Shown piece by piece: positions 1 through 20,133 of a stretch of 20,412 nucleotides of DNA. Below the pieces are notes generated by a model. The model was given only the letters and a program-made list of their open reading frames with translations. It was not told the DNA's origin and ran no database searches. Position 1 is the first letter of the stretch, and every line of letters starts with the position of its first letter. Source of the DNA: a virus; IMG/VR virus record IMGVR_UViG_3300046804_000947, positions 1 to 20,412 of that record; one strand, given 5' to 3'. Made by a program: the position numbers and the translations under genes.

Positions 1-1462
1 CGTAAACTGCTCCTGTTTCGAAGAAGTTAGAACCTTTGAAGCCCATTAAGATAACGTTCTCTGTCATGTATGGGTTTTTGTAAACGTCATATCTGTTAGA
101 GATAGAACCGATGTTAGTTACACCTGCAGCAAATTGTAAAGCGTCTTTACCAGGATTTGCAGAGAAACCATTCATTGATTCTAAAATTGTAGCTACGTTT
201 GGAGATACTACTACGAAGTTAGCACCACCTCTCATTGTTAACTGATGAATTTTGTTAGATACCTTTTGTAATTTGATACCTAAAGTTTGGAACCATGTGT
301 TCTTTTGATATGCTGATGCAGCTGCTGCATTAGAATCAATTGAGAAACCAGCACCATTCCACTCATATCCTACTTTTGAAGACCAGTATTCAGTTGTGAA
401 TGCGTTTTGCTGTAACATCTCAAGGATTTCTAAATCAATCTCTAAAGAGATGTATTCAGATAACATTTGAGTTAATTCAGCTTCAGCATCTACTGAATGG
501 TATGCATTCAAGTCTTGTGCTAATTCTGGAGTCCAAATTGCTTTCAACTTACGAGTTTTAGCAACGATTGGTTCAGATTTCAATTCTAATTCAACTTCTG
601 GGATTGGTAAGTTTGCACCTCTATCTTCGAAGTCACCTCTAGAGATTGAAGTAGGTTGAACGTGGTAAGCTAATGAAACCTCTACTGTGTTATCATTACC
701 CATACCTGTTGCTTGTGCAACGAATTCAACATTAGAACCATTTTTAGTAGTGTATTGAGGGAAGAAAGTTACAGAACCTGTTAATGATGTTGGTTCAAAA
801 GCTCTTACACCGTTGAAATCAGCATCAGATGGTAATGCAACTACGAATTTTTTCAATGTGTTACCTGCGTAAGATGCAGAAACAGTTGAATTTGTTAAAT
901 CCCAATCAATATCTGCTAAAGATGCAGAAGACATTGTAGCTACAATTGTAGATGTAGCGTTATTGATTGTGTATCCAAATCTACCAGCTCCGTAAAGACC
1001 ACCTTCAGTAGCTTGAGTAGAACCCAATTTGTTACCTGATGGTGCTAAAGAATCTTTACCGAAAGTTCCACCATTACCGAATAATGAAGAACCTGTGAAA
1101 TCTGGATTACCTGCTGGGTTAGAACCATATTTGAAATCCATATAGAAAATAAGACCTGATGGTAAGTTCATTGGTTGTACAGAAACGAATTCTTTAGCAG
1201 CAATGCTACCGAAAATTCTTCTTACCAATGGAAGTGCTACACCAGCCCATTCTTCTGAACCTGCAGAAGTACCAGTTCTTGTTGCTTCATCCAATAATTG
1301 TTTAGCTTGGTTTTCTAACATTACTGCCATACCATGCTTTGAAGTTTCAGAACCAACACCTTCTAAAAGGCCAGTTTTTTCCCACTTGCTTTTCAAACCT
1401 CTAGTTTGCTCAAGCATTATGTTTTGTGGGTTTTTGCCTGTCATAATTTGTTTTAAGTCCAT
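1..1462 (-). CDS. 23: Major capsid protein, T4 gp23-like (C-terminus beyond window)
   Basis: This gene encodes the hexamer-forming shell protein of the head. It is open at the window edge, with 487 residues visible from the ATG at 1462. The central part contains TRKLKAIWTPELAQDLNAYH followed by DAEAELTQMLSEYISLEIDL, the hallmark block of T4-type capsid proteins (T4 itself has RQLKAAYSIELAQDL in the same place). An early VQPMNLPSG matches the T4 VQPMNSPTG element. The N-terminal ~59 residues resemble the T4 delta-peptide that gp21 removes: KWEKTGLLEG parallels T4 KWKPLLEG, and LDE59|A60 sits close to the T4 cleavage position E65|A66. The leader before the ATG is A/T-rich with no Shine-Dalgarno, and only 25 bases separate it from the scaffold stop. 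The identity is very secure. The C-terminal end and any following vertex gene cannot be seen. Confidence 0.96.
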   Translation of the reverse strand, partial: MDLKQIMTGKNPQNIMLEQTRGLKSKWEKTGLLEGVGSETSKHGMAVMLENQAKQLLDEATRTGTSAGSEEWAGVALPLVRRIFGSIAAKEFVSVQPMNLPSGLIFYMDFKYGSNPAGNPDFTGSSLFGNGGTFGKDSLAPSGNKLGSTQATEGGLYGAGRFGYTINNATSTIVATMSSASLADIDWDLTNSTVSASYAGNTLKKFVVALPSDADFNGVRAFEPTSLTGSVTFFPQYTTKNGSNVEFVAQATGMGNDNTVEVSLAYHVQPTSISRGDFEDRGANLPIPEVELELKSEPIVAKTRKLKAIWTPELAQDLNAYHSVDAEAELTQMLSEYISLEIDLEILEMLQQNAFTTEYWSSKVGYEWNGAGFSIDSNAAAASAYQKNTWFQTLGIKLQKVSNKIHQLTMRGGANFVVVSPNVATILESMNGFSANPGKDALQFAAGVTNIGSISNRYDVYKNPYMTENVILMGFKGSNFFETGAVY

Positions 1463-1487: not shown

Positions 1488-2750
1488 TTATTTAATAATA
1501 CCTGCTAATTTCTTAAATCTATCAGAAAAATCAGCTGATTCAGCGATTACTACTTTTGCAGCTGCTGGTTTAGTTGATTTAACCGCTTTAGAAGCGATAC
1601 CTTCTGTGATTGATTTTTTGTTAGCTTTTGATGTAGAAGAAGTATATTTGAAATTCTCTGCTAATGTAGAGTAAACCAATTTAACTTCTCTTACTGATTT
1701 TGTTCTATCCAAAGTTTCAATAACTTTAACTTTTTGTTCGTTAGTCATATTGTGAGCTCTGAATAATTTGTTTGCGAATAACAACTTAGCGTTCAATAAG
1801 TTCACTTCGTTGATAGTTCTTTGTAATGATTTGATAGTTGCGTAAGCTTCGTTTAATTCAGCTTGTACAGCTTCATCTTTCTTTTCTTCTTCACCATCTT
1901 TCATATCATCTTCCATTTCTCTTAAGATTTCCTCTAGGTCGATTACATCTTCAGAAACGTTGTCGAATGAACCAACTTTACCTTTTACGGTAGCTTTAGT
2001 TACATCTTCTTGTTCGTTAGCAACTTTAACTGCAGGGTCTTCACTCTTATCAGTTCCAGCTTCTTCACCATCATGGTATATTTCAGCCATTGGGTTTTCA
2101 TCAGCTACTGGTTCTTCTTGAGCATCTTCACCTTCTAATTGAGCTTCTAACTCTCTGATGATAGCTTCTAAATCAAGGTCATCTTCTGATTCTTGGTCAT
2201 CACCACCAAATTGGTCGTCACCACCTAAATCATCAGAACCCATTTCATCAGAACCCATTTCATCACCTGCTGCCATAGTATCATCTTCAGAATCTTCGCC
2301 TGCTTCTAATTCTGCTAATCTAGCTCTTAATTGTGCGATTTCATTTTGTTTTTCATCGTCACCAGCCATAGCATCATCTTGTGCAAACGGATTTTCATCT
2401 TCAGAGATATCAGCAACTTTTTTGTAGTCGGTACCAGCTTGTTCTGGCTTACCGCTGTCCTTCTTAACACCTACTGATAAATCAGTATCAGCATCTAAAC
2501 TTGGTTGAGCACCTGGTGTTTCAGCGTACCCAGCATCAGTTTTAGAGCCAATGTTAGAAGAATCTAACTCTTCATTTTGCATATCATCATCCTTATCAAC
2601 TTCTGCTTCTGCTTGTAATTTTTGAGACAAGATAGATTGAAGTCTTGGAGTGAATGCTTCTTCAAGAGCTAATTTTGCGTTTGCTAATGCAGTTTCTTTA
2701 ACAGCTTTAGCGTCGGCAATTGCTTCTTTTAACAATTTTGAATTTGCCAT
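1488..2750 (-). CDS. Prohead core scaffolding protein, gp22 position
   Basis: This 420-residue, strongly acidic protein lies directly upstream of the capsid gene, which is where T4 places the gp22 core scaffold. It should form the internal core around which the capsid shell assembles and then be degraded by the prohead protease. Residues 1-50 and 290-370 look helical and coiled-coil-like. Residues 51-290 are Asp/Glu-rich and low in complexity. Two related helices, DLEAIIRELEAQLEGED (193-209) and DLEEILREMEDDMKDGEEE (271-289), suggest an internal duplication. The C-terminal tail FSDRFKKLAGIIK is the kind of basic-amphipathic end seen in T4-type scaffolds. Candidate protease sites are LEE31|A, LNE301|A, ITE383|G and IAE404|S. 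I chose ATG 2750 because AAGGAG lies 7 bases upstream; an in-frame TTG at 2801 has no such support. There is little recognisable sequence similarity to T4 gp22, so the call rests on position and composition. Confidence 0.82.
   Translation of the reverse strand: MANSKLLKEAIADAKAVKETALANAKLALEEAFTPRLQSILSQKLQAEAEVDKDDDMQNEELDSSNIGSKTDAGYAETPGAQPSLDADTDLSVGVKKDSGKPEQAGTDYKKVADISEDENPFAQDDAMAGDDEKQNEIAQLRARLAELEAGEDSEDDTMAAGDEMGSDEMGSDDLGGDDQFGGDDQESEDDLDLEAIIRELEAQLEGEDAQEEPVADENPMAEIYHDGEEAGTDKSEDPAVKVANEQEDVTKATVKGKVGSFDNVSEDVIDLEEILREMEDDMKDGEEEKKDEAVQAELNEAYATIKSLQRTINEVNLLNAKLLFANKLFRAHNMTNEQKVKVIETLDRTKSVREVKLVYSTLAENFKYTSSTSKANKKSITEGIASKAVKSTKPAAAKVVIAESADFSDRFKKLAGIIK
2231..2260. repeat. 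15-bp tandem duplication inside the scaffold gene
   Basis: The 15-base unit catcagaacccattt occurs twice in exact tandem (2231-2245 and 2246-2260), and the following catca begins a third copy. On the coding strand it repeats the pentapeptide GSDEM within the acidic region of the scaffold. It looks like a recent slippage duplication in a low-complexity coding stretch that can tolerate length change. Confidence 0.85.
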
Positions 2751-2757
2751 TTTATTT

Positions 2758-2763
2758 CTCCTT
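2758..2763 (-). promoter_or_regulatory. Strong Shine-Dalgarno sequence of the scaffold gene
   Basis: On the minus strand the sequence AAGGAG lies 7 bases before ATG 2750. It is the best ribosome-binding site in the window; most other starts here lack one, including that of the capsid gene. It decides the start of the scaffold gene in favour of the ATG over the upstream TTG. Confidence 0.75.
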
Positions 2764-2878
2764 AAATTTGTTCGTGAAGTTATTTGGAAAGGAAACTCCA
2801 ATAGTATAATGTTGGTTGTTCGGTCACTCTACATCAGAATCGTAGGTATTCATTAACCAACTGTGTCTTAAAATCGAA

Positions 2879-2897
2879 ATCCCATATAAAATGGGAT
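2879..2897 (-). terminator. Hairpin after bS21, possible weak terminator or RNA-processing element
   Basis: The arms ATCCCAT (2879-2885) and ATGGGAT (2891-2897) form a perfect 7-bp stem with a 5-base loop. In the minus direction it follows the bS21 stop by about 40 bases, and the downstream sequence is T-rich but interrupted (TTTCGATTTT). The stem is short and the T tract imperfect, so termination is uncertain. It could instead shape the 5' leader of the scaffold mRNA. Confidence 0.3.
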
Positions 2898-3120: not shown

Positions 3121-3651
3121 TTAACCTTGCTTAAAATAATATTCTTCGTAATGAATAATATCTAATAAATTTGTTGGGTCTATCAATTGTGCAGCATTTA
3201 ACAAATCAGAATATTCAGCTACCGATTGATTTTGTATATTTCTAAATTCCGTTAAGAAATCAAATGTACTAATATCTGTTGTTAAAAGTTTTAATGAATC
3301 ACTATTGTATTTGTTAAATAAATCAAATTCTATTGCATATGATTTATTAACAATATCAATCAAACTACCAAAAGTAATTCCGGGCTTTACTGCTGGCATT
3401 GTTGGAGTAACATTCCAATCAACTAAATATTTTTGTAATTTTTCTGCATGCTCTAATTCATTTTCAGCTTCCGCTTCAAAAAATTTAGCTGCGTTATTAT
3501 AACCTACACCTTTACACCAGTTAGCCGCATTTCTATAAAAAAAGTGAGCAGTATATTCATCTACCAATCTATCATTTAAGATTTGAGTAGATGTACCACT
3601 TAATACTTTTGGCATTATTGGTTTTCCAGTTGTCAACGATTTTGGCGTCAT
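3121..3651 (-). CDS. Ferritin-like iron-storage protein
   Basis: This 176-residue four-helix protein has the length and pattern of bacterial non-heme ferritin. Helix A contains LNDRLVDEYTAHFFYRNAAN with a metal ligand at E32. Helix B contains NAAKFFEAEAENELEHAEKL with E65 and H68; the spacing from E32 (33 and 36 residues) equals that of E17, E50 and H53 in E. coli FtnA. Helix C supplies E108 in SYAIEFD (FtnA E94), and helix D supplies Q140 in FRNIQNQSVAEY (FtnA Q127). The acidic residues of the third iron site (FtnA E49, E126, E129, E130) align with N64, I139, Q142 and S143, so that site looks lost. The role would be oxidation of Fe(II), and possibly mineral storage in a 24-mer. It starts 2 bases after the preceding stop; an in-frame ATG at 3615 (MPKVLSG) is an equally plausible start. 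A ferritin inside a head-gene operon is unusual. Confidence 0.88.
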   Translation of the reverse strand: MTPKSLTTGKPIMPKVLSGTSTQILNDRLVDEYTAHFFYRNAANWCKGVGYNNAAKFFEAEAENELEHAEKLQKYLVDWNVTPTMPAVKPGITFGSLIDIVNKSYAIEFDLFNKYNSDSLKLLTTDISTFDFLTEFRNIQNQSVAEYSDLLNAAQLIDPTNLLDIIHYEEYYFKQG

Positions 3652-3653
3652 TT

Positions 3654-4133
3654 TTATTTAAGTTTATTTTCTAAATCTTTTACAGTTTGTCTTTGTAATT
3701 TTACATCACCATAAGCTTGAGTCATAATTTTTATAAGGTCTTTTTCTAAAGCCTCTATACCACCACCATCAGTAACTCTCTTATCGTTTTTATATTTTTT
3801 AATTTCTTTTTGTGTTTCGGAATGATTTACATATATTTCTGCCATTTTTGCTGGACTAGCTCCAGAATAATATGCATCATTTATTTTTTTAACTATATCA
3901 TCACTACCAACTTTTCTAATTATTTCTTTTTCAGCTGATATAAGTTTGCTATTAAATCCATCTTGGTAATCTGCTACTTTTTCAAAAAGATTTGCTAACC
4001 AAGTTGCAACGAAATAAATACCTAGCGGTTCTAATATAGCACGAAGTAATCCTTCCTCAAGTGTTTTATTTTCTTGTGAATCAACTATTTCGTTTGTTTT
4101 CCATTCATCTTTTATGTGATTAGATAGTTTCAT
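3654..4133 (-). CDS. Unknown head-operon protein with one hydrophobic segment
   Basis: This 159-residue protein is not recognised. Residues 29-50 (LLRAILEPLGIYFVATWLAN and following) form one hydrophobic stretch that could be a membrane helix or a buried amphipathic helix. The rest is charged and helical, ending in a Lys/Glu-rich segment. LEE27|G28, directly before the hydrophobic stretch, fits the T4-type prohead-protease consensus. If it is used, residues 1-27 would be a removable targeting peptide and the product would be an internal head protein. The start overlaps the end of the upstream gene by 14 bases and the stop lies 2 bases before the ferritin start, so translation is probably coupled. 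Function beyond membership of the head operon is unknown. Confidence 0.7.
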   Translation of the reverse strand: MKLSNHIKDEWKTNEIVDSQENKTLEEGLLRAILEPLGIYFVATWLANLFEKVADYQDGFNSKLISAEKEIIRKVGSDDIVKKINDAYYSGASPAKMAEIYVNHSETQKEIKKYKNDKRVTDGGGIEALEKDLIKIMTQAYGDVKLQRQTVKDLENKLK

Positions 4134-4536
4134 TCAATCCCAATCTTTGATTCATTTGTTCTTGAGTAATCTCTGCTATTTCAAAATATCTACCTAATAC
4201 GTGTCCCATATCTTCGTACAAAGCTTCCAATCTTTGTTCTTGTGCTTTTGCTTCTACGGATTCTTTTTCAAATGAAGATTGTAACTTTTTAAGTTCATTC
4301 ATATTTCTCTTAATAGTTACTCTATCAAACCAATCACCACCTTCTCTCAAAGTATATTCTTGTGCAGCATCTGCAATAGCACCTAATGTTTCAGCAACTT
4401 GTCTAATATCAGATTTTCTACTCATAGATTCTCTGTGTTGACCATAAGTTGATATGATTTCTAAAAAATGCTTTTTTAACTCCGATGGAAGTTGTTGCAA
4501 TTCTTCTTCTTTTAATAAATCTTTTAACTTTATCAT
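4120..4536 (-). CDS. Unknown conserved-looking phage protein, helical
   Basis: This 138-residue protein has predicted helical, highly charged sequence. It opens with MIKLKDLLKEEE, a short amphipathic N-terminus of the kind often seen on head-associated proteins of T4-like phages. The middle holds GGDWFDRVTIKRNMNELKKL, the most distinctive block. LRE65|G66 just before it fits the prohead-protease consensus. The ATG overlaps the previous gene's TGA (ATGA), which is typical of translationally coupled phage genes. It could be an internal head or core protein analogous in position to T4 gp67/gp68, but there is no sequence evidence for that. Confidence 0.7.
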   Translation of the reverse strand: MIKLKDLLKEEELQQLPSELKKHFLEIISTYGQHRESMSRKSDIRQVAETLGAIADAAQEYTLREGGDWFDRVTIKRNMNELKKLQSSFEKESVEAKAQEQRLEALYEDMGHVLGRYFEIAEITQEQMNQRLGLNETI

Positions 4537-4815: not shown

Positions 4816-5406
4816 TTAATTTAATTCTATTATAATTTCTCTCATTAAATCTTGTGCTCTACACCACTTTCCACATTCTTCTGCTATTTGTTTCCATTGT
4901 TTTGCTTCTTGCAAAGGTGCCATAAATGCACCATGTGTAGATGGATTGGAAACAAAATCCCAACCTACTAATTCGAAATCTTCTTGTACCATCAAAGTAC
5001 CATCATTTAATTCTTTTACTGAACCTAAACCTCTTGATGAAATACCTAAACGAATATTATTTTTTAATAATTCTTTTAATATATTTCCTGATGGTGTGGA
5101 AAGAATTTCAACTTTACCCATTACATCATCACCATCCCACCAAATTTCTCTGATGTTATGTGATACATTCTTTAAATTGATTACTGGAGAATCTGGATGG
5201 TCTAATTCGCCTAATGCTCTACGTTCTTTAATAAGTTGTCCATATTTTTGGCACTCTCTCATTAAAATTTCTTTTGGATATCTTCTATTGTTTTGATTTG
5301 GCGCACCTGCTCTTTGAAGAATACCTTGAACTAAATATGTTCCGTTTTCTTCTTTAACCATTTTGGCTTCGAACAAATGTGTTTCTATCAATAATCCTTT
5401 ATTCAT
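4816..5406 (-). CDS. 21: Prohead core protease, T4 gp21-like
   Basis: This 196-residue serine protease of the T4 gp21/S80 type digests the scaffold and trims head proteins during maturation. The family core is visible: RRYPKEIL (41-48), ALGELDHPDSP with the catalytic His at H70, GISSRGLGSV with the candidate nucleophile among S123/S124, and FELVGWDFVSNPST (144-157) with a candidate third residue at D150. LFE13|A14 and LQE167|A168 fit the enzyme's own LxE|A consensus close to the two ends. T4 gp21 is known to be self-trimmed at both ends, and here the mature form would be residues 14-167. Its ATG overlaps the stop of the upstream gene by one base (TAATG). Identity is secure from motifs and from its position between portal and scaffold. 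Confidence 0.93.
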   Translation of the reverse strand: MNKGLLIETHLFEAKMVKEENGTYLVQGILQRAGAPNQNNRRYPKEILMRECQKYGQLIKERRALGELDHPDSPVINLKNVSHNIREIWWDGDDVMGKVEILSTPSGNILKELLKNNIRLGISSRGLGSVKELNDGTLMVQEDFELVGWDFVSNPSTHGAFMAPLQEAKQWKQIAEECGKWCRAQDLMREIIIELN

Positions 5407-12897: not shown

Positions 12898-15800
12898 TTA
12901 TTCATAAAATATACCTAATATTTGATTAAGTGGTGCAAATGTGCCTGTAAGTTTATAAGTTTTTCCATTATAAAAGAAAACTATTCCTTCATTTGCAACT
13001 ATCTTATCCACCCCACCTAATTGATTTAATCTACTTAATTCTGTTTTTAATTTTTGAATTTTAGATGGGTCTCCACCACTTCTAACTTGTGCAGCTACAC
13101 TTTTTAATTTTGCTTTCATTGAACGGATTGCTTTTTCAGGATGAACTGTTAATACTGAACTAACAAATTCTAATACATCCGCACCAACACCTAAAAATAT
13201 TTCCTCAAATGGTTTGATATTATCTTTTTGCTGTTTTGCAACATTTACTTTATCATTATTTACTGCCCACTCTTGTAATTTAGGATTTGTAATCGTATTT
13301 AATCTTAAACTTTTATCACCAAATGCCCATCTTCTAACTAATGCCTCTTTTGTAAGTTTATCAACTTTAATAGGCGCTTTTTCATCTATAAAATTTTCCC
13401 ACCAGCTTTGATGATATAAAGAAATTGTATCATTATCATTTAATCCAAATTCCGATTGTAATTTTTTTAATTTAGAAATATATTTTCCTTGTTTTGAACT
13501 TAATTCATCACTTTTAGGAATTTCCGTTACCGGTGGTCCCTGTATAGTATATTTCGATTGGATATCAGCATTTACTTGCTTAATCATTCCTGCTAACATA
13601 CTAGCAGCTCCTTGATTTGCACCTGTTGGAGAACCTTTTTCATCATAACAAGTTGTATTATGAAATATTAATAATGCTTGTCCATAAGGGATAACATTTA
13701 CCGATGTCGGCCATATTACTTCCAAATTCATAAAACATTGCCCTTCATTGAATATCTTTTTTCTTTGTGCATCAGATAAACCACTTATTGCTGCTGATAA
13801 ATCTTTCATTGCGTAATTATAAGCATCGGTTAAACCACCTCTACCTGCAAATTTAGATGCAACATCTTCAATACCCATTGCGTTTGCTCCAGCATTTGCT
13901 AAATGTCCTTTATTTCTAGCAGCAATTAATCTACCATTTTTCCAACTGATTGCTAATGCTTGTCCATCTGTTTTTTCTCTAACTACACCCAATTCACCAT
14001 TAAGTGCACCTGTAATAATATTCTTTAAATCACCAAATGTCAAATCCATATCATCAAATGGATGACTCATATGCCCATATGCTCCACCTTCGGTAATAAC
14101 TTTTTTTCCAATTTTATTTTTTCTTATTGGAAAATCCGTTTCCATATCATCATCCGTTCTTGCAACATTTTTAACTTTATATGAAACTGTATATTGATTT
14201 TGGTCCTCTGCTCCATATATTGCATCTGCTACAGGAAAATCCGTTTGAGTATATCCACCATTTGTATACCAATCATCACTTTTATTTACACCATCATCTG
14301 CTCCTAATTTTCTAGCATGTCCTTTTGGTAAATAACCACCATCTGGTTGAGAATCATCGCCGGCCATTGCACTAACTTCATCAAGATTTGGTCTAATATT
14401 TAATTCCTTTTCCATTTGAGTAATATCATCATATCCCATATTTCTCAATGCTCTTGCAACATCATTTGCTTTATATCCATTTGGATTTCCAAAAAGATAT
14501 GCATTTATTCTTTTTCTAAATTTTGCATCTCTATATAATTTAATCATATTTGCAAAATGAATATCTTTACTACCCATTTCATCCAATGTCCTAAATGTAG
14601 TTGCTTGTTTTCCATTAATTGTTGGCATTCCGTGGTCATCGGTTCCAATATTTTTAACGGTAACTTTTTTATTTTTAAATTTACCCATTAATACGGTATC
14701 ACCTTTATCAACATCTACATTAACATCTTCTGTATAAATTTTTTTATTCTTTTTTCCAAATTCTCTTAAAAGTATTCCTGCCACTGCGTTTGCTTGATTT
14801 TCAACAGGTGAACCAGTTTTACCAGCTTCCATTGGATTTTTAATCAATCCCATTTCATCTTGCTTTCTATGAATCATTTCATGTGCAATAGTTCTTAAAA
14901 TATCTGCACCCAATCTTTTATCACATTGAACAAATATTTCTTTTGATTCAGGATTATATCCACCCAATGAAGATTGTTCATTTGAATATTCTTGTCCACT
15001 TAAAAGAGTTATTTTTGGTCTTTCTTCTAATTTTAATCTTTCGGTTGCATAATCAACAAAATCGTTTATGAATTGTTTTTTTACATCTGACATTGTTTCA
15101 TTTAAACTTTCTTCTTCCGGTTCGGTTTCTCCTGTTTCAGGATCATGATGTGCAAAAGTCTGATGCCAAATTTTAGATTTTTCAATTGCTCTTGCAGGAT
15201 TTAATTTATCTATTTTTTGTTGAACGGTTAATTTTCTATTAAACATTCCTGTAGATGGAACATAGTGTTCTTCTTCCATTTGGAATTTATTTAACATCTT
15301 TTTATTATTCCAACTATCCACAATATTTTCAACCACTTCAGGAGTTAATTTCATATTTTGTAATCGTTCCGCAATTGCTCCTGCAAATATGTTCAATGCA
15401 GTTGCTTCATCAACACCTTCGGCAAACATTGCTGCCTTTCCAACTCCACCTATTAACACTTCACCAATTGCATGTGGTACTAATTCTGCAGCTACGTGTT
15501 TTGCAAATGCAGCTGCTCCATGTGCAAGTCCACCACCTGCGGCCGCCATCACAGCTGTTACTGCTATTTTTTTACCAACCGATAACATTGCCTTTTTATC
15601 GTGGTCATCTAATTTTTTTCCACTCATCAATTTCATTACACCACTACCTGCAGCTTTAAATTCTTGAGCTTCATGTTTTAATCCATGCATAATAGCATGT
15701 CCTGCACCTTTTGCTTTATCCATTATAGCTTGGCCCCAACTTCTTCTTTCATCGTGTCCTTCTTTTTTATTAAGGATTTTGCTAAAAGTTTCCTTTTCTT

Positions 15801-17400
15801 CTTTACTCCAATTTTTTAATTTACTATGTAATCTTTTTACAACGTGCTCTTTTGAATCACCATTTTTTTCTTTTTCGGCTCTATGTTCTGCATCTGATTT
15901 TAATTCTACCCCACTTAATTTTTGTTCAGGTGGAGGTCCTTGTTCTTTCCCAGGTTCTCCTACTGGTTTAGATGTATCAGTTTTACCTTGTGCAGTTTGT
16001 CCTTTTTTAACAGGTTGGCCTGGTTGTGCAGGTTTTGCTGCAGCTTGCGCTGCTTTTCCAGGTTCTTCTTTTCGTTTTGGTTCGTTTGCAGGAGCATCAT
16101 CCGGTCCTGCTATTTTTGCAGCCTGTATGTGTGCTGGATGGTCTTTGGGTAATCTTAAAGCATCTCTGGCTTTAATTTTCTTTTGTTTGCCATCAGCGGA
16201 TGTATATGTAATATCCGTATCCAATGCTTTGTTTGGAGCTTCACCCAAATATTCCATCAACCATTCTTCAAACATTTCATTAGTGATGTATCTGTCTATG
16301 ATTTCTGAAATTGGGTCATATAAATTTTCTTCATTAATATTTCTAGCATAATTCATAGTTCCATCTACATCTGGTGGGTAAATATTTACAGGCCTTTGAT
16401 TATATGGATACATTTCCCATTTTTCTGCTTTATCTTTTGCATACTCCGGTCCTTTTGATGGGTGTATAACTCTTTTTAGTTCACCATTTTCATCTTTTGG
16501 ATTATTTGCAGGTAAATAAACATCTCCCGTTTTTTGTTTATGAAAATTAGAATCATGCCCTAACATTGTATATCCTACTATTTCTGCATGGTTTTGTCCC
16601 GCAGTATCAAATGGTGTCCAATCTCCCATCCAAGGTGAACGGAAACTTTGGTCATCCAATGTACCATCAGCTGTATTACCACCTTCTTCATTTAAGAATG
16701 TTTTATTATCAAAATATTCTTGTAAAAATTTTGCAAATTCTTGTTCTGCTATACTTTCATTTGAACCCGTGGGTGCACCATTAATATATCCTCCCGGAAG
16801 GTTTAGTCCAACGCCTGTACCACCTGGAAATTCTTCATTAAGTTTTCCTGTTATCATTTTAAATACTTCTTTATCAAATTTTGGATATGCTTTTAAAAAA
16901 CCCTTTTTAGCTTTTTCTTTATCAGTAGTACCTAACCATTTACGAACATCAGTTCCACTAATAGGATTTTGTTCTGCAGGTACTGGGTATACATAACCAA
17001 TTTCATCATAACCATATCCTGCTTTATTTTTATATGGTTTGAAATATTTTCCTTGCAATCTAGTTGCATCTTTTTCACCCACAGCTGCAATGTATTGCGT
17101 TGTTTGTCCATCAAACTTTTTAAGAATTTCTACCGGCTGATATGGGTTTTTTATTTGAATGAATTTATTTGAAGGTACTCCAAACATTTTCGTTGCAATT
17201 TCTTTCTTCTCTTTAAATGAAAATGGCGATTTTGGACCAGATTGGTCATTAGATGTACCAATATAAACATTACCTTCACCAAATTTAGAAACCAGTTTCG
17301 CATAAGATGCATAATGTCCTTTGTGGAATGGTTGAAATCTTCCTGAATATACAACTACTACTTTTTTTACTTCTGGTTTATTTACTTCGATTAAATTCAT
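12898..17400 (-). CDS. Giant multidomain protein: nucleotidyltransferase, metalloprotease-like and ligase-like domains
   Basis: This is a 1500-residue protein. Residues 12-185 form a HxGH nucleotidylyltransferase of the NMN adenylyltransferase/cytidylyltransferase type: SGRFQPFHKGHY with H26 and H29, and ISGTDVRKWL (147-156) as the second phosphate-binding motif. Residues 200-390 are of unknown fold. Residues 430-500 are a Pro/Ala/Lys/Gln-rich linker. Residues 605-665 are Gly/Ala-rich and hydrophobic. Residues 770-885 contain RTIAHEMIHRKQDE, an HExxH zinc-protease motif (H840, E841, H844), and ENQANA with a possible third ligand E867. Residues 1105-1500 resemble the covalent nucleotidyltransferase core of DNA/RNA ligases: motif I EKTDGQ (K1143), ARNKG (R1162), MNLEVIW (E1227), EGIVF (1471-1475) and YKLTG (K1483). 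ITE1104|G1105 and LGE387|A388 fit the prohead-protease consensus. It starts 21 bases downstream of a 42-residue gene. Domain calls are by motif; activities are unproven. Confidence 0.85.
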   Translation of the reverse strand: MNLIEVNKPEVKKVVVVYSGRFQPFHKGHYASYAKLVSKFGEGNVYIGTSNDQSGPKSPFSFKEKKEIATKMFGVPSNKFIQIKNPYQPVEILKKFDGQTTQYIAAVGEKDATRLQGKYFKPYKNKAGYGYDEIGYVYPVPAEQNPISGTDVRKWLGTTDKEKAKKGFLKAYPKFDKEVFKMITGKLNEEFPGGTGVGLNLPGGYINGAPTGSNESIAEQEFAKFLQEYFDNKTFLNEEGGNTADGTLDDQSFRSPWMGDWTPFDTAGQNHAEIVGYTMLGHDSNFHKQKTGDVYLPANNPKDENGELKRVIHPSKGPEYAKDKAEKWEMYPYNQRPVNIYPPDVDGTMNYARNINEENLYDPISEIIDRYITNEMFEEWLMEYLGEAPNKALDTDITYTSADGKQKKIKARDALRLPKDHPAHIQAAKIAGPDDAPANEPKRKEEPGKAAQAAAKPAQPGQPVKKGQTAQGKTDTSKPVGEPGKEQGPPPEQKLSGVELKSDAEHRAEKEKNGDSKEHVVKRLHSKLKNWSKEEKETFSKILNKKEGHDERRSWGQAIMDKAKGAGHAIMHGLKHEAQEFKAAGSGVMKLMSGKKLDDHDKKAMLSVGKKIAVTAVMAAAGGGLAHGAAAFAKHVAAELVPHAIGEVLIGGVGKAAMFAEGVDEATALNIFAGAIAERLQNMKLTPEVVENIVDSWNNKKMLNKFQMEEEHYVPSTGMFNRKLTVQQKIDKLNPARAIEKSKIWHQTFAHHDPETGETEPEEESLNETMSDVKKQFINDFVDYATERLKLEERPKITLLSGQEYSNEQSSLGGYNPESKEIFVQCDKRLGADILRTIAHEMIHRKQDEMGLIKNPMEAGKTGSPVENQANAVAGILLREFGKKNKKIYTEDVNVDVDKGDTVLMGKFKNKKVTVKNIGTDDHGMPTINGKQATTFRTLDEMGSKDIHFANMIKLYRDAKFRKRINAYLFGNPNGYKANDVARALRNMGYDDITQMEKELNIRPNLDEVSAMAGDDSQPDGGYLPKGHARKLGADDGVNKSDDWYTNGGYTQTDFPVADAIYGAEDQNQYTVSYKVKNVARTDDDMETDFPIRKNKIGKKVITEGGAYGHMSHPFDDMDLTFGDLKNIITGALNGELGVVREKTDGQALAISWKNGRLIAARNKGHLANAGANAMGIEDVASKFAGRGGLTDAYNYAMKDLSAAISGLSDAQRKKIFNEGQCFMNLEVIWPTSVNVIPYGQALLIFHNTTCYDEKGSPTGANQGAASMLAGMIKQVNADIQSKYTIQGPPVTEIPKSDELSSKQGKYISKLKKLQSEFGLNDNDTISLYHQSWWENFIDEKAPIKVDKLTKEALVRRWAFGDKSLRLNTITNPKLQEWAVNNDKVNVAKQQKDNIKPFEEIFLGVGADVLEFVSSVLTVHPEKAIRSMKAKLKSVAAQVRSGGDPSKIQKLKTELSRLNQLGGVDKIVANEGIVFFYNGKTYKLTGTFAPLNQILGIFYE

Positions 17401-17555: not shown

Positions 17556-18098
17556 TTAATTTTTATAATATAATTCAGGCCATTCTACTATGATATGAAC
17601 CCCACCTTGCTCATAAGCTTCGGTATATATTCTATAAATATCTTCTATTTGTTTTAATTTATGAACTTTTGTAAATTGAAGTATTGATTCAAATTCATCG
17701 GTATAATCATTTCTATGTTGAATTCCTGGATCTAAAGGGTCTTTACTACCAACACCAACTCTAACTATTATGTTAGCCTTTTTACCGGTCATATGTTCAA
17801 ATTTATCAGCATGATTAATTAATTGATTTGCAGCTGATACTAAAAAATCCCAACGGGGATAAAATGATATTACAGTTTTACCCGTAATTGCCAACCCCAA
17901 ACTCATTCCCATTTGAGTTTCTTCCATAACAGGCACTTCAATCATTTTTTCTTTTGGAACATCTCCCAATGTTGTACTCATTGGATTTCCTGCATAAACT
18001 ATTTGTTGTCCAATAAAGATGGTATCTTCTTTTTCAGCAAGAAATTTCATTGCTTTACTTAATTCATCTTTATATGGTGACATTTGTGGAGCACTCAT
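17556..18098 (-). CDS. Thiamin-diphosphate enzyme domain, half of a pyruvate dehydrogenase E1 beta/transketolase-type subunit
   Basis: This 180-residue protein corresponds to the pyrimidine-binding (Pyr) domain of 2-oxo-acid dehydrogenase E1 beta and transketolase-like enzymes. E59 in EVPVMEETQMGMSLGLAITG aligns with the conserved Glu that activates the ThDP cofactor. YPRWDFLVSAANQLINHADK (80-99) matches the E1 beta helix that follows. The C-terminal transketolase domain of E1 beta (~120 residues) is absent, yet the gene ends cleanly with TAA and no remnant follows, so it is a single-domain version. A partner carrying the pyrophosphate-binding domain is not in the window. It overlaps the epimerase stop by one base (TAATG), which suggests action on the same sugar pathway, for instance a two-carbon or amino-sugar modification. 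Substrate is unknown. Confidence 0.8.
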   Translation of the reverse strand: MSAPQMSPYKDELSKAMKFLAEKEDTIFIGQQIVYAGNPMSTTLGDVPKEKMIEVPVMEETQMGMSLGLAITGKTVISFYPRWDFLVSAANQLINHADKFEHMTGKKANIIVRVGVGSKDPLDPGIQHRNDYTDEFESILQFTKVHKLKQIEDIYRIYTEAYEQGGVHIIVEWPELYYKN

Positions 18099-19090
18099 TA
18101 TGGTCTTGAATTTGGATTATATAAATGTTTATTTTCTTTATACCACTCAATTGTTTCTTTTAGTGCCTGTTTTAGATTTCTCTTTGGTTTCCAACCCATG
18201 TCATTAATTTTTTTAGATGACATTAATCTAACAGGAATCATAGGTGCTTTATTATTCACATATTCAACTGGATTATTATTGTTATCCGCTTCTTTAATCC
18301 ATCCTAATACTTCATTTACACTAAATCCTTCACCATAACAAACATTAAAAATATTATATGTATCGTTGTTTTCTGCTACAAAAATAAAACCATCTGCCAT
18401 ATCTTCAACATGCAATAAATCTCTCACTTCCGTACCATCACCCCAAACTGGAATTGGATTTAAACCATCTGCTACTTTTCTGATGTTTGCAGGAGTAACG
18501 TGACATTTTTCATAATCAAATTTATCGTTAGGTCCGAATGCGTTTGAAGGTCTAACAATCAAACATTGCATTGGATTGTGGATTTGGTTTGAGAAGAAAT
18601 GACAAAGTAATTCACCATATCTTTTCATATTACCAACTGCTCCGTAAATTGGGAATGTTGGTGTCGCATGTACATTAATATCTTCTGTACAAAAATCACT
18701 ACCCATATCAGGATAAGATGTGTTAGATGAAATAAATAGGAATTTACCAACTTTATTTCTCCAACTTTGTTCCATTAAGTTTACATTCATTTCCACATTT
18801 GGAGTAACATGTAATAATGGATTCTCTTTTGTATCTAATGCATTTGATGTGTTTGCTGCACAATGAAATACAACATTTACATCCGTTGATACTTCTTTAC
18901 AAAAATCAGCATCTTGTAAATTTCCTTTATAAAATTCAACTTCGGATGTTCCTTCGAAATCGTTTTTTAAATCTCTACTATAAGATGTTGCTCTTAAGTT
19001 TCTATATCCTTTTTCCCATAATAATCTTAATAGGTGTGAGCCGATAAAACCACTTGCTCCTGTGACTAAAATTTTGTCTGTTTTTTTCAT
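18098..19090 (-). CDS. NAD-dependent sugar-nucleotide epimerase/dehydratase (extended SDR)
   Basis: This 330-residue protein is of the size and architecture of nucleotide-sugar epimerases and GDP-fucose-synthase-like enzymes. The N-terminal Rossmann motif is TGASGFIGS (10-18). NVVFHCAANTS follows, then the active-site serine region FISSNTSYPDMG. The catalytic Tyr is Y150 in PIYGAVGNMKRYGELL. The usual Lys four residues on is replaced here by Gly, with a Lys at +7 (K157), so the spacing is Y-x6-K. Late motifs RPSNAFGPNDKFD and GDGTEVRDLLHVEDMADG are typical of substrate-binding loops. It lies 5 bases after the SGNH gene and overlaps the E1-beta-like gene by one base, so they probably form one pathway. 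The exact reaction cannot be told from sequence. Confidence 0.88.
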   Translation of the reverse strand: MKKTDKILVTGASGFIGSHLLRLLWEKGYRNLRATSYSRDLKNDFEGTSEVEFYKGNLQDADFCKEVSTDVNVVFHCAANTSNALDTKENPLLHVTPNVEMNVNLMEQSWRNKVGKFLFISSNTSYPDMGSDFCTEDINVHATPTFPIYGAVGNMKRYGELLCHFFSNQIHNPMQCLIVRPSNAFGPNDKFDYEKCHVTPANIRKVADGLNPIPVWGDGTEVRDLLHVEDMADGFIFVAENNDTYNIFNVCYGEGFSVNEVLGWIKEADNNNNPVEYVNNKAPMIPVRLMSSKKINDMGWKPKRNLKQALKETIEWYKENKHLYNPNSRP

Positions 19091-19095
19091 AATTT

Positions 19096-20133
19096 TTATT
19101 TAAAAATATCCCAATTTAATACAACTTCGTTTACGAATTTTTTAGTAAGAATTGCTGATGTGTGTCCGTACCAACTTCTTTCTAAATATTTCTTTTGCTC
19201 ATTTAAATTCATACCATTCATTTCTCTCCACAATACTTTTGGTAAATCTCCATCCATATTATAATCAAAATTTCTAATTGACCATTCAATTAGACCACCA
19301 AACAAATGTAATGAATTTTCTTCAAAAAACCAAAAATATTTTTTAAAATCAATTTTATCCGCATATGATTTTACATATGAATTTTCAAAATATAATTCTT
19401 TTTGTTCCCAAGTATCACAAATATCTTTATTTTCTATAATACATTCGTATATAGATTTTTCTTTTGGAGTATGATAGTATGGTGGTGTTCTACCCTCATT
19501 CAAATATTTTTTACTAAAATTATTATTCATACAAAAGAATTTTATTTTATTAATTCCATTTATATGAAGAAAATTTAAAAGCATATTAATATATTCAAAC
19601 CATTCAAAATATCTTTCATTATAAGTCATTATCTTATCAAGCCATTCAAAAGTAACTGAATCTATATTGATTGGATTGTTAGTTGGATTAAATCCACCTG
19701 TTAGGTGAAAATACCCTTGTTGGTATGGTGATGTTTTATCTTTTCCATTTATTAAATAATCAGTAGTGTGTGCCCAACTTTCATTGTATTTTTGATATCG
19801 TAAAGCTGGATTTACTGTTTCGTATTTTTCAGGAGTTATAAAAAAAGAATTTCTTGTAAGCGTTGTCCATTGTGCTATTACAATAATATCATCCGGTTTA
19901 ATTCCTTCTTTTAATAAATCAGAAACTTTGTAAATAATAGACCTAACAATACTTTTATTATCATGTGTTAGTGCTCCGTAATTGTGTAAAACATATTCAT
20001 CTTTTAAATAATGTTGTAACCAATTTGCCCACGTCCATTCTTCTATTGGGTCATTCTCCCATCTTCTTTCATCACCTATATTAATTCTAAAATTATTTGT
20101 GAAAGAACATCCTGATACTACTATGTGTTTCAT
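19096..20133 (-). CDS. SGNH/GDSL-hydrolase-like protein
   Basis: This 345-residue protein opens with MKHIVVSGCSFTNNF, where GCSFT is the block I nucleophile motif of SGNH-type esterases (Ser11). A block II-like LHNYGALTHDNKS and a block III-like IVIAQWTTLTRN follow. Near the C-terminus SWYGHTSAILTKKF supplies a candidate catalytic His. The central ~200 residues are aromatic- and Asn-rich and not recognised. Such proteins in phages usually act on acyl groups of glycans, and this one sits next to an epimerase. It overlaps the upstream SGNH-like gene by four bases (ATGA). The block II/III residues deviate from classic forms, so enzymatic activity is uncertain. Confidence 0.74.
   Translation of the reverse strand: MKHIVVSGCSFTNNFRINIGDERRWENDPIEEWTWANWLQHYLKDEYVLHNYGALTHDNKSIVRSIIYKVSDLLKEGIKPDDIIVIAQWTTLTRNSFFITPEKYETVNPALRYQKYNESWAHTTDYLINGKDKTSPYQQGYFHLTGGFNPTNNPINIDSVTFEWLDKIMTYNERYFEWFEYINMLLNFLHINGINKIKFFCMNNNFSKKYLNEGRTPPYYHTPKEKSIYECIIENKDICDTWEQKELYFENSYVKSYADKIDFKKYFWFFEENSLHLFGGLIEWSIRNFDYNMDGDLPKVLWREMNGMNLNEQKKYLERSWYGHTSAILTKKFVNEVVLNWDIFK

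Follow-up and report, generated by a model that had tools for sequence, protein, structure and literature searches.

Dps and Mn-catalase are encoded by the 'Gratiaviridae' gut phages and were proposed to limit oxidative damage (PMC8008677), and a giant-virus ferritin was proposed to regulate iron in virion production (PMC7136201). A protein of the Vi01-like phage Sajous1, identified in the virion by mass spectrometry, was modelled as a ferritin with Phyre2, and Vi01-like phages were not found to depend on those host genes for iron uptake that were tested (PMC10892097). Phage Dps and Mn-catalase and a viral ferritin, with proposed roles similar to the one discussed here, are thus already known (PMC8008677, PMC7136201). 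The phage ferritin analysed in this study resembles the 'Gratiaviridae' proteins as a phage-encoded member of the ferritin superfamily proposed to act against iron and reactive-oxygen damage in infection, but those are mini-ferritins or catalases and not a maxi-ferritin, and no swap in the head operon was reported for them (PMC8008677). The giant-virus protein differs in being encoded by a eukaryotic virus in an unrelated genome setting (PMC7136201). Entry A0A6J5MFB8 of BFVD, 'Ftn Ferritin-like protein (Fragment)' from an uncultured Caudovirales phage, belongs to the same phage ferritin family (65% identity over 128 residues); it is a fragment, and no account of its setting or function was found. 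Literature on phage ferritin, Dps and DUF5856, the family that shares the ferritin's slot in sister phages, yielded no description of the present ferritin family and no mention of DUF5856.

The window, that is, the whole 20.4-kb IMG/VR record (20,412 nt), carries an intact 176-aa ORF (Table 1) that the initial annotation had read as a ferritin from the letters alone. The product matched the Pfam Ferritin family with E=1.7e-19 and 70.6 bits (cut-off 24.5) and PDB ferritins in phmmer (V. cholerae FtnA 3qz3, E=2.5e-11), and a profile of the ferritin family also matched ferritins among the solved structures. The AlphaFold2 model, obtained from an alignment of 40 phage relatives, had a mean pLDDT of 94.0 and a pTM of 0.86, and placed five ferritin helices at residues 19-49, 52-78, 97-123, 127-154 and 162-172, giving the predicted architecture of a ferritin with a four-helix bundle, a long BC loop and a short fifth helix. 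The nearest folds in Foldseek and VIA-align were the FtnA proteins of E. coli and V. cholerae (Z 23.6, rmsd 1.3-1.6 over 160 residues), so that the structure prediction proposed as a check on the first reading recovered the ferritin fold. By sequence family, predicted fold and invariant ligands (see below), the gene is a ferritin, far beyond chance. It shares with FtnA the fold, the order of the five helices, the ferroxidase ligands and a conserved tyrosine; unlike FtnA, it has lost the third iron site, carries an N-terminal extension of about 15 residues, and belongs to a phage clade of its own at 21-22% identity, scoring below the cut-off of the NCBIfam FtnA equivalog NF007638 (38.6 vs 178 bits). 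The dN/dS ratios of close pairs among relatives L001-L013 (L numbers denote loci) were 0.07-0.11, indicating purifying selection on the ferritin. Assembly into a 24-mer cage and ferroxidase activity would be expected of such a protein. A similarity between the N-termini of the ferritin (TTGK..) and the capsid protein (MTGK..) was rejected as too weak.

Residues of the window ferritin were mapped on E. coli FtnA from MG1655. E17, Y24, E50, H53, E94 and Q127 of FtnA correspond to E32, Y39, E65, H68, E108 and Q140, and these six ferroxidase residues, including Tyr39, did not vary in any of 40 diverse phage relatives with 37-76% identity; in E. coli FtnB, by contrast, the equivalents of E50, H53 and E94 are lost. 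Five of the six, all except the tyrosine, had already been placed at ferroxidase-site spacing in the initial annotation, which had also described the acidic residues of the third site as lost, and the alignment agreed with it on both counts: E49, E126, E129 and E130 are replaced by N64, I139, Q142 and S143, respectively. At the position of FtnA E129, E or D is retained in 23 of the 40 relatives. The third iron site, which the window ferritin lacks, marks the FtnA type and not the ferritin family.

The genes of the head region run on the minus strand in the order terminase, a 204-aa ORF, portal, several small genes, prohead protease, X92, X138, X159, ferritin, S21, scaffold and capsid (Table 1). 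The placement of the ferritin in the head operon proved correct, as the gene lies on the same strand as its neighbours at 2-bp spacings. It had, more precisely, been placed between the protease and the scaffold with 2 bases on either side; those spacings exist, but they are to X159 and S21; three genes lie between it and the protease, and S21 and 137 bp between it and the scaffold. Expression late in infection with the head genes would follow naturally from this arrangement. A candidate late promoter, TATAAATA, was rejected, with seven matches in the window against 4.3 expected and none ahead of the ferritin. Terminator-like elements numbered four against 2.7 expected in a consensus scan, in which chance matches are common and are not evidence of function; the one between S21 and the scaffold had a folding z of -1.96. 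The true start of the scaffold gene is probably the ATG at 2750 (MANSKLLKEA..., as in relatives), and the capsid gene was named by its position and by the annotation order in immuto and Mel-JY01. X138, which has 305 relatives in IMG/VR, begins with MIKLKDLLKE, a stretch that includes an [LI]xE motif. The S21 homologue, a phage version of a ribosomal protein within a head operon, was found in 73 of 99 related slots. Elsewhere in the window, a 1500-aa protein (12898-17400) combines an N-terminal cytidylyltransferase domain (PF01467) with an internal zinc-protease-like motif, HEMIHRK, and genes resembling those of sugar metabolism (17556-20133) include a weak transketolase pyrimidine-binding-like match, an NAD-dependent epimerase and DUF6071.

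Table 1. Features of the head operon around the ferritin gene in the window.
Feature	Coordinates	Strand	Basis or remark
Major capsid protein, T4 gp23-like	2..1462	(-)	Truncated by window end; LDE/A site at residue 59
Acidic scaffold-like protein	1488..2801	(-)	Named by position and composition; without Pfam or PHROG match
Terminator-like short hairpin with T-rich tail	2879..2897	(-)	Between S21 and scaffold
Ribosomal protein S21 homologue, 59 aa	2939..3118	(-)	PF01165 E=4e-14; 2 bp downstream of ferritin
Phage ferritin, 176 aa	3121..3651	(-)	Pfam PF00210, AlphaFold2 model, residue mapping
X159, 159-aa ORF	3654..4133	(-)	2 bp, directly upstream of ferritin; without Pfam match
X138, 138-aa conserved head-operon protein	4120..4536	(-)	Left border of variable slot
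Prohead core protease, Peptidase_S77	4816..5406	(-)	PF03420 E=6.8e-32; phrog_207 head maturation protease E=6e-55

To compare the locus with its relatives, IMG/VR was searched with the protease and X138 of the window, the slot being defined as the stretch from X138 to the scaffold; the best 80 relatives per scan were taken, so that the proportions apply to the window's close relatives. Ferritin was found in none of the 113 newly fetched loci spanning X138 to the scaffold. Once the ferritin loci were included, there were 99 unique slots, of which 84 contained DUF5856 without ferritin, nine contained ferritin without DUF5856, one contained both (L010) and five contained neither. The survey of related phages suggested at the outset thus mostly found DUF5856 in the place of the ferritin, and not an empty locus with a disrupted gene: relatives lack the gene, but where the ferritin is present it has stayed intact, with purifying selection acting on it. 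As it is absent from most close relatives, the ferritin is not needed to build the head. With the window counted, DUF5856 was missing from 10 of 11 ferritin carriers against 5 of 89 ferritin-free slots (Fisher p=1.8e-9, a value that ignores kinship). L108 and L109 have the tightly spaced order X138-X159-DUF5856-S21 where the window has X138-X159-ferritin-S21, with X159 75% identical, so the exchange is exact in position. In a DNA tree of protease and X138 (80 rows), the window was nested among DUF5856 carriers (99/97) and L009 was nested in another DUF5856 clade (100/99); three changes were forced by well-supported branches. A single clade of all ferritin carriers was rejected (p-AU 6e-5), though not when the window was left out (p 0.118). 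The head-gene phylogeny thus supports about three replacements between ferritin and DUF5856; the independent swap pairs, all or nearly all exclusive, number only three, at which significance is unreachable (sign test p 0.25). In 48 long records, which were partly picked for having ferritin or DUF5856 and may be fragments, 20 carried ferritin, 17 carried DUF5856 and one carried both above the cut-off. The slot also takes a SET-domain protein (L001:2124-2540), a DNA methylase with an I-TevI-like DNA-binding tail (L210:6753-8117) and small ORFs, and is therefore partly a general insertion spot. The swap as a general rule was rejected: in 160 loci that are close kin of the ribonucleotide reductase and tail settings of the ferritin (see below), neither ferritin nor DUF5856 was nearby, so the swap is particular to the lineage of the window.

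The main occupant of the slot in the relatives matched DUF5856 (PF19174, E 4e-12 to 4e-16; phrog_858) and has 123 aa (for example, L106:7249-7617). A Dps ligand pattern, Hx11Hx14Dx3E, was first spotted in one member and then found in all 73 unique DUF5856 sequences of this lineage, and a weak phmmer match to H. pylori NAP had the pattern in register. The AlphaFold2 model of DUF5856 had a pLDDT of 93.5. Nearly all of its top 50 Foldseek matches were Dps proteins, at E values of only 0.004-0.05 (best 0.0036) and with the caveat that four-helix bundles match easily; VIA gave Z 14.4 to MsDps2 and 13.7 to E. coli Dps, with rmsd 2.1-2.2 over 121 residues. Against the Pfam Ferritin-like domain, DUF5856 stayed below the cut-off (best 12.8 vs 24.5 bits). 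Remote DUF5856 proteins of other phages keep the HW..H..D..E ligands with a shorter loop. The assignment of DUF5856 as Dps-like is well supported by the predicted fold together with the ligands, and ferroxidase activity may be expected of it. The two occupants of the slot nevertheless belong to different families, DUF5856 having Dps-type ligands between subunits and the ferritin a site within the subunit. L409-L415 also encode DUF5856, and the family is annotated as unknown or as 'starvation-inducible transcriptional regulator'. That DUF5856 belongs to the head operon in all phages was rejected: six other phage records, Mel-JY01 among them, carry it away from any recognisable head operon. In L410 (6267-6782), DUF5856 has a 45-residue N-terminal extension with a possible prohead protease site (..VMHLNE/AEKK..), a hint from the sequence that Dps-like DUF5856 could be packaged.

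Carriers of the ferritin are uncultured aquatic phages, and at least 174 phage relatives were found in IMG/VR. In tblastn, no relative was recognisable in 50,697 phage records of isolates or in 72,556 plasmids. The carriers probably infect Bacteroidota, and the isolates closest to them are the Flavobacterium immuto phages. A scan of 84,980 prokaryote species, which required the family's own motifs and could be escaped by remote cellular sisters, returned one relative, L076, on a 3.2-kb contig of an Actinomycetota MAG; the contig has the phage gene order dUTPase-ferritin-601aa and is a phage piece misbinned into a bacterial genome. Recent capture from a host genome was rejected on this ground. 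Within the family, at least six genomic settings were recognised, so the head operon is not required for the ferritin. When the window is added to the 73 loci of the first scan, 14 ferritins lie in the head operon, 13 adjoin dUTPase and have DnaB and a ribonucleotide reductase of class II close by, 12 adjoin endolysin and arrays of tagged genes, six adjoin the tail sheath, tube and baseplate hub, and the remainder are in further settings. The wider scatter shows that the ferritin also moves as ordinary cargo. In the ferritin tree, in which E. coli FtnA is the only cellular sequence and its branch is too long for rooting, the head-operon ferritins formed one clade (97/98), and therefore the cassette moves between these phages.

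The presence of a ferritin in a Dps-like slot points to iron control in late infection being important for these phages. The reading we prefer, with slightly better than an even chance of being right, is a late sink for Fe(II) and peroxide in the infected cell, interchangeable with the Dps-like DUF5856. The ferritin would be made late together with the head genes, would bind Fe(II) at the two-iron ferroxidase site, oxidise it by O2 or peroxide and store the ferric mineral, and free Fe(II) and peroxide would thereby be prevented from reaching phage DNA during replication and packaging, as well as the host cell as it fails. In most sister phages, the Dps-like mini-ferritin DUF5856 would do the same job at the same operon position, the two being exchanged as cassettes. 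We infer both this protective role and the functional equivalence of the two proteins; protection of the particle or host from iron and peroxide chemistry, one of the options raised in the initial annotation, gains support from the Dps ligands of the protein in the relatives' slot. A narrower version, in which these T4-like phages reserve a site in the head operon for an iron oxidase of the ferritin superfamily, DUF5856 or maxi-ferritin, that acts at or in the prohead and keeps Fe(II) and peroxide from the DNA during packaging, appears unlikely. Possible, if rather doubtful, is that the ferritin is a mobile moron or auxiliary metabolic gene that stores or seizes host iron from a permissive spot, the loss of DUF5856 being a by-product of recombination. 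The number of settings, the unrelated genes housed in the slot, the sporadic presence of the ferritin among close slots and in two other lineages (1 of 80) and the like interpretation of the giant-virus ferritin (PMC7136201) all fit such a gene, but the near-exclusive replacement of DUF5856 at the exact position in about three lineages does not, nor would ferroxidase ligands on both proteins be expected of random cargo. That the ferritin feeds iron into an enzyme of the phage, for instance a di-iron ribonucleotide reductase, is very improbable: the reductase near the dUTPase-linked ferritins, the setting that brings this function to mind, matches a B12-dependent class II insertion domain (PF21995 E=5e-8) and needs no di-iron subunit, and no ribonucleotide reductase gene adjoins the window ferritin. 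The missing third-site acids could also be taken to mean a ferritin-fold protein without iron chemistry, acting as a scaffold or binding protein. Vertebrate H ferritin likewise has a degenerate third site, and a ferritin lacking that site need not be inactive; with all six ferroxidase residues invariant across such diverged sequences this explanation is scarcely credible.

A place for the ferritin in the virion, as cargo or structural component, had been suggested too and was not borne out. As a component in or on the head, the protein would protect packaged DNA or, in a 'Ferrojan horse' variant, carry iron to the next host, which we regard as decidedly unlikely; packaging found little support. 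The position in the head operon speaks for it, as do the ferritin model of the Sajous1 structural protein (PMC10892097), the [LI]xE N-terminal extensions of relatives in other settings (L016, L018, L038, L056, L059), the location of some relatives within arrays of tagged, internal-protein-like genes, and the weak matches to the ferritin fold of BFVD entries that bear the name prohead protease. However, the prohead protease site [LI]xE, the T4-type internal-protein tag, was not present in residues 1-120 of the window ferritin, about one fifth of proteins would have an [LI]xE within 25 residues by chance, most close relatives form heads without the ferritin, and the family is spread over many settings. 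The motif is present in the capsid, the scaffold, X138, X96 and the 204-aa protein.

Several observations were made on tagged proteins in these phages. Ferritins outside the head operon (L016, L018, L038, L041, L056, L059, L066-L068) have N-terminal extensions with LKE, INE, IRE, LNE or LGE, possibly by chance. Arrays of small paralogues sharing an N-terminus (MKKVKLFEQFINEA, MKTFKEFTIDEA) were found in L018, L021, L022, L031-L037, L042, L050, L053 and L054, and the ferritin is located inside some of them. Judged from its sequence, the shared N-terminus resembles a capsid-targeting peptide with a prohead protease site at its end, and the arrays may be large sets of injected internal head proteins. 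In BFVD, A0A6J7XDU5, A0A6J7WIS1 and A0A6J7WPK9, named 'prohead protease' in uncultured phages, matched the ferritin fold weakly (E 0.004-0.03) and are possibly fusions of prohead protease and Dps.

Relative to the described systems, the new elements are a large phage-restricted clade of maxi-ferritins, its repeated and position-exact exchange with DUF5856 in the head operon, and the assignment of DUF5856, on its predicted structure, to a Dps-like fold with the Dps ligands. The ferritin clade has many members and was wholly missed by isolate collections. If the late iron and peroxide sink is the true role, these phages, which are abundant in fresh water and the sea, would repeatedly face iron and oxidative chemistry as a problem late in infection and would have met it at a single place in the operon with two different proteins of the ferritin superfamily. 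The phage family DUF5856, until now without an assigned function, would thereby gain a likely one, and the slot would offer a direct test of phage iron management.
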